From contig NZ_CP042467.1 in the NCBI RefSeq assembly GCF_007993755.1, forward strand, positions 1,960,001 to 2,024,000: a DNA stretch of 64,000 bases, in the 5' to 3' direction. A program made the position numbers and the translations under genes. The DNA is from Microvenator marinus (GTDB taxonomy: Bacteria; Myxococcota_A; Bradymonadia; Bradymonadales; Bradymonadaceae). The notes under the pieces were generated by a model that was not told the origin of the DNA, did not search any database, and saw only the letters and a program-made list of their open reading frames with translations. Below are positions 1 through 2,127 of this stretch, piece by piece (position 1 is the stretch's first letter; every line of letters starts with the position of its first letter).

Positions 1-2127
1 GTTCGGTACACCGCTGATGCGATGGAGAGTGTGCTTCACCTCTCACGGCGATTCTTCCAGAACGATGCCTATCCAGGAAAGGCTGTTCGTTTGATCAAGC
101 AATGCCAGTACGAGGCCCTACGCTACGTCAACGAATTCGACTGGGAATACCAGACCGAAGTGCGTGTGGACACGGACCTCGTTGCGCGCGTGGTTCAACG
201 TCAAACAGGCCTTCCACTCACGATTTTGGAGCCTGGAAAAGGACGTGCTCCGGATGAAATCCGCAGGCAGTTTGAGTCCAGGGTTTTTGGTCAGCCAGAG
301 GCTATCGAGGCCGTGTCTGCGCTAGTTGCCACGATTGAACAGGGGCTAAGCGACCCACGAAAACCACTCGGCTCGTTCTTGTTCATCGGTCCAAGTGGCG
401 TTGGAAAGACGGAGACAGCCAAAGCGATAGCCACCGATTTGTTTGGGTCGGTCGAGCGTATGATTCGCTTCGATATGTCCGAGTTTTCTTCATCGATGGG
501 TATTTCTCGACTCATCGGAACCTCACGAGATCCGGACGGAGAGTTGACCACGAAGGTAAGGCTTCAGCCGTTTTGCGTCTTGCTCTTTGACGAGATCGAG
601 AAGGCGCATCCGATGGTCATCGACCTGCTTTTGCAGGTTCTCGGCGACGGACGTTTGACGGACGCAGCGGGGCGAAACGTAGACTTTCGAAATGCCGTGA
701 TCATCCTGACTTCGAACCTCGGCGCGGGTACCGAAGAGCGTTGGATGGGCTTTAGCGACACGAGCACGTCGGACCGAAGACTCCACTATTTGCGAGCTGC
801 CGAGACCTTTTTCAGACCGGAAATTTTCAACCGTATCGACACTATTATCGCGTATCGGCCGCTTGATGCTGAGGCGCTCAGGCGAATCGCAAGACGCACG
901 CTCCAAGGGCTTTTGGAGAGACGTGGACTTCGTCAGGCGCAGGTCATGGTGGACGTCGATCAGGCGTTGATCGACTACCTCGCCACGCGTTCGGTGGACA
1001 AACGGTACGGGGCGCGCACATTGGCGCACCGCATCGAGCGTACGCTTATCACGCCGCTCGCCGAAAAGTTGATTTCTCAGCCGGTGAGCCAAGATGTGAC
1101 GCGAGTGGTCATCAGCCCTTCGGACGATGGAGTTCAGATGGATTTCATCCATTTGAACAAAGCTCCAAGGCCATCGGAGAAGGTTGCGCTCGCGCCGGCA
1201 CCGAAGGAGCTCGCGGGTGTTGTAACGAGTCTGGAGAAGCTGCAAACGAAGCTACTCAACACGCTCAAAGACGCGCGTTTCAGCGAGATTTCGGCGCAGT
1301 ACGAAACCATCCTCGACGCCATCAACAACGAAGCCAAACAAGGCAGCGTTTCGGCCCAACTCGCCGACCAGCTCACATCTCGCGAGCATGTAATCAACCA
1401 GATTGAACGGATCGAAGAGCGGCTACAGGGCCTGCACGACCCTAAAAATCCGGGTGAATTCTCGGTCCCGACCCATAGCGAGGAGACAAAATCGCGCCTC
1501 CAAGGTCTAAGCAAGATGCTGCGCGAGCTCGAAGAGGCGAGCATCTGGGCTGACGTTCAGCTAGAGAGCCTTGCGAATAGCGAGTCTGGGGTCACGCTCG
1601 TGTTTCAGGGGCTGAGCGGTCCTGCGGGCGAAATCATGAGTAAGTGGCACCGTTGGGTTGAGGTCATTCAGGAGAAGTTCGAACTCAACGGCTCATTTGC
1701 GTACCTCGACCGTTCCACGTGGCAAACCTCGCGCCCCCGAGACCTCGCACGTGCGCACGGCTTCGCCTTCAGCTCCACCGCTCCGGGCGCACGGGCAATT
1801 GCCCATTCGATCGGCGGTTTCACGTGGTGCCCAAGGCCCGCCTCAATCGGCCACCACGCGCTTTTGCATGTCGGGACGACCGATGAAGCGCATGTGAGCA
1901 GCGAAGCCCTTAGAGACGCTCTCAAGGCCAATGGCACGCCTCATATCGGTGAGGACTTTATCGAGTTCGTCGAGTCGGAAGGCCATCTCGAGGATGTCAG
2001 AACAGGCCTTCGTGTGCCTATTCCTGAGGACCGCGGGCAGAATCTGAACACGTTTATGACTCAGATTTTGGTGCCGAGATTGTACCTTCAAGACAAAAAC
2101 GCGCATCAAGTTGGCGGTAAAGATTAG
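1..2127 (+). CDS. ClpA/ClpB-type AAA+ ATPase (5' partial) with release-factor-like C-terminus
   Basis: The gene is cut by the left edge: the frame is open through base 1 and the first residues match the end of a Clp first ATPase module. Numbering from the Met at base 22, the second AAA+ module has Walker A GPSGVGKT (123-130), Walker B LLFDE (187-191) and an arginine finger in FRPEIFNRID (about 271), followed by a D2-small domain to about 365. This implies an unfoldase or disaggregase. Residues about 400-700 are not Clp-like. A helical stretch leads into a segment resembling the PCRF domain of peptide chain release factors, and then a short RF-1-like tail without a GGQ motif. The stop lies 8 nt before hisD, so the two are probably cotranscribed. 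The AAA+ call is firm; the release-factor resemblance is by eye. Confidence 0.85.
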   Translation, partial: VRYTADAMESVLHLSRRFFQNDAYPGKAVRLIKQCQYEALRYVNEFDWEYQTEVRVDTDLVARVVQRQTGLPLTILEPGKGRAPDEIRRQFESRVFGQPEAIEAVSALVATIEQGLSDPRKPLGSFLFIGPSGVGKTETAKAIATDLFGSVERMIRFDMSEFSSSMGISRLIGTSRDPDGELTTKVRLQPFCVLLFDEIEKAHPMVIDLLLQVLGDGRLTDAAGRNVDFRNAVIILTSNLGAGTEERWMGFSDTSTSDRRLHYLRAAETFFRPEIFNRIDTIIAYRPLDAEALRRIARRTLQGLLERRGLRQAQVMVDVDQALIDYLATRSVDKRYGARTLAHRIERTLITPLAEKLISQPVSQDVTRVVISPSDDGVQMDFIHLNKAPRPSEKVALAPAPKELAGVVTSLEKLQTKLLNTLKDARFSEISAQYETILDAINNEAKQGSVSAQLADQLTSREHVINQIERIEERLQGLHDPKNPGEFSVPTHSEETKSRLQGLSKMLRELEEASIWADVQLESLANSESGVTLVFQGLSGPAGEIMSKWHRWVEVIQEKFELNGSFAYLDRSTWQTSRPRDLARAHGFAFSSTAPGARAIAHSIGGFTWCPRPASIGHHALLHVGTTDEAHVSSEALRDALKANGTPHIGEDFIEFVESEGHLEDVRTGLRVPIPEDRGQNLNTFMTQILVPRLYLQDKNAHQVGGKD

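Follow-up and report, generated by a model that had tools for sequence, protein, structure and literature searches.

The gene that opens the 64,000-nucleotide stretch of Microvenator marinus DNA analysed here (the window) encodes a Clp ATPase whose chain continues for about 335 residues beyond its ClpB_D2-small domain, and the question raised by this locus is where such a tail comes from and what it could do on an AAA+ ring. An earlier note on this DNA had read it as a release-factor-like tail lacking GGQ, a reading which holds at the level of the family described below and which, for the window protein alone, stays below significance. Positions 1..2127 (+) are filled by an open frame corresponding to the last 708 of the 1100 residues of a gene that we call gene B. 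It is incomplete within the window and its full length was read from the whole genome (G000:C1:1958825-1962127), with a GTG start 1176 bases upstream of the window and a stop at window position 2127. Gene A, a tandem paralogue of 1126 codons, lies directly upstream and overlaps gene B by four bases. The first downstream gene, assigned from sequence as hisD (2136..3386, +), is outside the system; it belongs to histidine biosynthesis genes, recognised by sequence, that follow gene B at window positions 2136-9141, and hisD is also found near the Clp array in L020.

The product of gene B is a two-ring Clp ATPase and shows the class 1 feature of a D2 AAA+ domain with Walker A and B motifs followed by a D2-small domain. 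The D2 ATPase domain (Pfam AAA_2, residues 121-282 of the window protein, 361..846, +; E 1.4e-41) contains the Walker A motif GPSGVGKT (388..411, +), read from the sequence, and an intact Walker B acidic pair DE within LLFDEIEKAHP (589..594, +), and is followed by ClpB_D2-small (residues 288-369, 862..1107, +; Pfam, E 3.2e-12). Comparison with the family places the segment RLIGTSRDPDGELTTKVR (508..561, +) at the canonical site of the Clp D2 GYVG pore loop, which is absent, and a tripeptide MGF (745..753, +) where ClpA, ClpC and ClpX carry the [ILV]GF/L loop, through which they dock ClpP. In the D1 ring the catalytic glutamate of Walker B is missing (VLFVES).

Beyond the Clp part, all of the direct tests of gene B were negative. 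In the window protein Pfam gave no PCRF match up to E 10 and nothing past ClpB_D2-small, the gene B tail profile matched no release factor among PDB sequences, and B tails compared with RF2 by hhalign gave E about 0.1, equal to the reversed controls; an AF2 model of the window tail, built on two sequences, reached a pLDDT of 38 and was set aside. Gene B nevertheless belongs to a family of Clp proteins, several of which pass the Pfam PCRF cut-off while also holding AAA_2 and ClpB_D2-small (best PCRF match 3e-16, in L133). In a D2 tree this family of 48 sequences is monophyletic with support 1.0; gene B is nested among tailed groups, the other branches are mostly release-factor-tailed, and the tail is absent only in a paralogue, gene C, and in a host gene, L004.

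Genes A, B and C tend to occur as a set. Gene C encodes a tail-less protein of about 780 aa; several genomes have it immediately behind B or a short distance away, and in the host it lies elsewhere (G000:C1:1660629). In a raw genome-by-genome count, 9/21 genomes of the host's family had all three genes, one further genome with a fragmented assembly (G015) had B and C, and the other 11/21 had none of them, and the A-B-C order recurs in G092 (L193). Around the array, as read with a simple gene caller, no neighbours are conserved beyond A, B and C, and no conserved translation gene was found beside it. The fusion also occurs in single-gene forms (L184-L192 as well as L134 and L135), about 900-960 aa in length. 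Among such Clp-RF2 fusions, L133, L134 and L135, from other Myxococcota, have clear PCRF domains; the open frame of L134 extends up to 1570 aa, and in L134 and L135 no D1 Walker A was seen upstream of the D1 pore motif. Release-factor-like tails in L030 (Planctomycetales) and L031 (Saprospiraceae) indicate that the fusion also exists outside Myxococcota, a spread known from these two only, since a scan of genome contigs matched mostly ordinary Clps.

The tail of gene A clearly derives from release factor 2 (RF2, prfB). An alignment of eight host-family members matched RF2 by hhalign at E 6e-10 (reversed controls near 0.1), gene A tails against RF2 profiles gave E from 6e-10 to 6e-14 (reversed controls about 0.03-0.1), and the single-gene tails matched RF2 at E 6e-20 over 295 columns. 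Furthermore, an A-type profile built from fifteen A-type and related Clp tails, without any release factor, matched PDB chains of RF2 at E 2.3e-19 and, when run over 282 Myxococcota genomes at an E threshold of 0.001, found genes of RF2 size (~350-430 aa) in the majority, with E values of 1e-15 to 1e-21 for many. Domain 1, the PCRF domain and the closing block of domain 4 are common to RF2, gene A and the single-gene tails, and the core signature of release factors (G..a..LL..E.G.H) is kept in gene A and in the single-gene forms. A Foldseek search with an AlphaFold model of the gene A tail (L029, three sequences, pLDDT 58) returned RF2 or RF1 as all of the top 28 matches, the best at 1.1e-7, which we take as supporting evidence only because the TM-scores were low (0.2-0.4). 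VIA-align adds little, since over residues 1-117 RF2 was tied with unrelated helical bundles.

The case for the tail of gene B is made because of family-level profiles and the monophyletic D2 tree, and not because of a direct match of its own. With the D2-small part trimmed, Bradymonadales B tails matched the pooled tails of gene A and the single-gene forms with E 0.0017 and a score of 30.9, the best of 60 column shuffles reaching 18.8; an earlier value of E 2.4e-5, inflated by the end of the D2-small domain, is replaced by this one. All B tails together, with the Clp part likewise trimmed, gave E 8e-6 and a score of 47.1 versus 17.1 shuffled, and more distant B tails gave E 1e-6 against the family. 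One could suppose instead that the B tail is a helical linker followed by an unrelated small domain, with motifs that resemble a release factor by chance, as the uniformly negative direct tests would allow. However, the profile match to the family runs end to end over 250-260 columns with the Clp part excluded, the distant B tails match RF1/2 themselves at E 7e-5, and B is nested among release-factor-tailed clades, so that we regard a chance likeness as improbable. From these profile comparisons, the B tail is very probably a strongly diverged relative of RF2, and RF2 ancestry of the tails taken overall can be accepted with nearly as much assurance.

Along the B tail, a predicted helical region (1213..1575, +) would be the counterpart of RF2 domain 1, to judge from its position in the family alignment and from low-confidence AF2 helices. 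It is followed by a PCRF-like core (TLVFQGLSGPAGEIMSKW ... GGFTWCPR ... HHALLHV; 1588..1872, +), the putative counterpart of RF2 domain 2 according to family-level profiles, the single protein not reaching significance. The register put forward at the outset, with GGFTWCPR on GVHRxxR and HHALLHV on HTSxxxV, agrees with the family profile alignment and with alignment A3; an alternative that placed the GVHR equivalent at SxGxHAL was dropped, as the profile alignments favour the GGFTWCPR register. The closing block FIEFVESEGHLEDVRTGLRVPIPEDRGQNLNTFMTQILVPRLYLQ (1960..2088, +) finds its best match, by profile alignment, in the last block of RF2 domain 4, and the stretch that separates it from the PCRF-like core contains no GGQ domain. 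The proposal that the end of the protein corresponds to the TGxxVxxxxxRSQxxN block of the GGQ domain therefore probably fails, as VRTGLRVPIPEDRGQNLNTFM aligns with the domain 4 closing block (RxY...xDxxTG), although aligning the tail directly to RF1/RF2 still favours the former placement, without significance.

What the family has lost is as informative as what it has kept. GGQ, correctly reported as missing from the window protein's tail, is absent from every family member checked. The single-gene forms, in which the whole RF2 layout can be traced, including a remnant of domain 3, carry sequences such as GTYGGRIRS in place of the GGQ stretch, and in these most RF2-like members the SPF/PxT stop-codon loop is deleted or altered; both of the tips that reach the active centres of the ribosome are thus gone. 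From the A and B tails domain 3 has disappeared altogether, and in the window tail the SPF/PxT loop is unrecognisable. As neither GGQ nor SPF/PxT was found in it, the window protein is not a release factor, and since the codon-reading and peptide-cutting parts of RF2 are missing, it is very unlikely that the tail releases peptides on its own. On the side of the ATPase, the D2 GYVG pore loop is missing in every family member, which makes ordinary threading doubtful, and it is retained by the host's own ClpA/ClpB-type proteins (L005-L008). The D1 FIDE glutamate is replaced in nearly all of the members where the D1 site was located. An xGF-like tripeptide stands at the place of the ClpP loop in nearly every family member, whereas it is absent from the host ClpB-type proteins L005/L006.

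The A/B/C family is of the Clp/Hsp100 kind and is not a kind of release factor. From RF2 it differs in that its tails are fused behind a Clp ATPase and, in B, detectable by family profiles only. With the class 1 proteins ClpA and ClpC it shares two AAA+ rings, the D2 Walker A and B motifs, D2-small and an xGF at the ClpP-loop position; unlike them, it lacks the D2 GYVG loop and the D1 catalytic glutamate, has another N-terminus and an RF2-derived tail, and forms a separate clade in the D2 tree. Among NCBIfam families, ClpB/Hsp104 matches the D2 half of gene B best overall, but TIGR03346 gave the C-terminal 708 residues 291 bits, far under the cut-off of 1232, so the score of a ClpB disaggregase is not reached; moreover, the 284 residues between the two ATPase sites would leave little room for the middle domain of ClpB. 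The pairing of an AAA+ ATPase with a release-factor-type protein has a precedent in eukaryotic ribosome quality control, in Cdc48 with Vms1/ANKZF1 (PMC6514570). There, however, ATPase and release factor are encoded as distinct proteins, and the factor belongs to the archaeo-eukaryotic type, which is unrelated, whereas here they are fused and the factor is bacterial, RF2-type and GGQ-less.

The explanation that we favour, and consider reasonably probable, is that A, B and C form a three-subunit, Clp-derived AAA+ machine in which the RF2-derived tails serve as docking modules. Close to the root of the family, a Clp ATPase would have acquired an RF2 tail, which was then whittled stepwise, the single-gene forms holding a domain-3 remnant without GGQ, the A and B tails losing the GGQ domain and persisting as degenerate RF2 with domain 1 and the domain 2/4 scaffold, and the C subunit having no tail. 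The three proteins would assemble in mixed rings powered by D2, and the tails would bind a partner in translation, most simply the ribosome near its factor-binding stalk, or an RF2 partner. ATP-driven remodelling might then remove or refold a client and might, by way of the conserved xGF loop, end in ClpP; coupling of the system to ClpP is possible, as two ClpP genes are present in the host. The ancestry of the tails makes the ribosome or a translation factor the simplest guess for the partner, and docking on the translation apparatus as the actual mechanism is doubtful. Loss of GGQ, together with loss of SPF/PxT in the single-gene forms, argues against classical work in the ribosomal A site.

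The tails could instead be scaffold only, an exapted fold that joins A, B and C or binds a client unrelated to translation. The loss of the functional tips (GGQ throughout the members checked, and the stop-codon loop in those most similar to RF2), the strong divergence between A and B tails, the absence of translation genes near the array and the co-occurrence of tail-less C with A and B would all suit such a fold, and we give it a substantial chance, somewhat short of even; the release-factor core signature kept in gene A and the single-gene forms nevertheless exceeds what a bare scaffold needs. That dead RF2 modules recruit the machine to the ribosome, where it would strip off or degrade nascent chains or bound factors, is rather unlikely. 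Extraction of nascent chains is just one option among several, and its strict form, an unfoldase docking on stalled ribosomes through the tail and pulling out nascent chains, as the earlier note had suggested, is weakened by the lost tips and by the missing D2 pore loop. Judging from Clp architecture, moreover, C-terminal tails would lie on the face of the ring from which substrates leave, which is not the side needed to draw a chain out of the ribosome. The ancestry of the tail does speak for it, and the host has the tmRNA partner SmpB, so that the usual rescue path is probably present and an unfoldase of this kind would be an extra one; on balance, we find it quite improbable.

Returning to the three-subunit machine with docking tails, no description of a Clp-release-factor fusion was found in the literature searched, although domain databases may well list the architecture; in the same literature no release factor is known as a component of an AAA+ ATPase, and a review of release factors makes no mention of Clp (PMC6514570). 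That a monophyletic Clp lineage has kept a decaying RF2 module while diverging deeply points to a protein machine not yet described, and the co-occurrence of the three genes adds to this pointer; some tie to translation is likely. A dead release-factor tail on a Clp ATPase suggests that protein quality control and translation are linked in a way not described before, and, if the machine were directed to the ribosome, it would be an independently built bacterial counterpart of eukaryotic Cdc48-Vms1. The Clp-RF2 genes offer concrete targets for testing in cultured Bradymonadales. Apart from the array, the host gene L004 (G000:C1:3385459-3389607) encodes a Clp-like ATPase (about 867 aa) that lacks both GYVG and a release-factor tail, whose place in the D2 tree is close to the RF-tailed single-gene forms and whose N-terminal region, as read from its sequence, looks like HEAT-type repeats.
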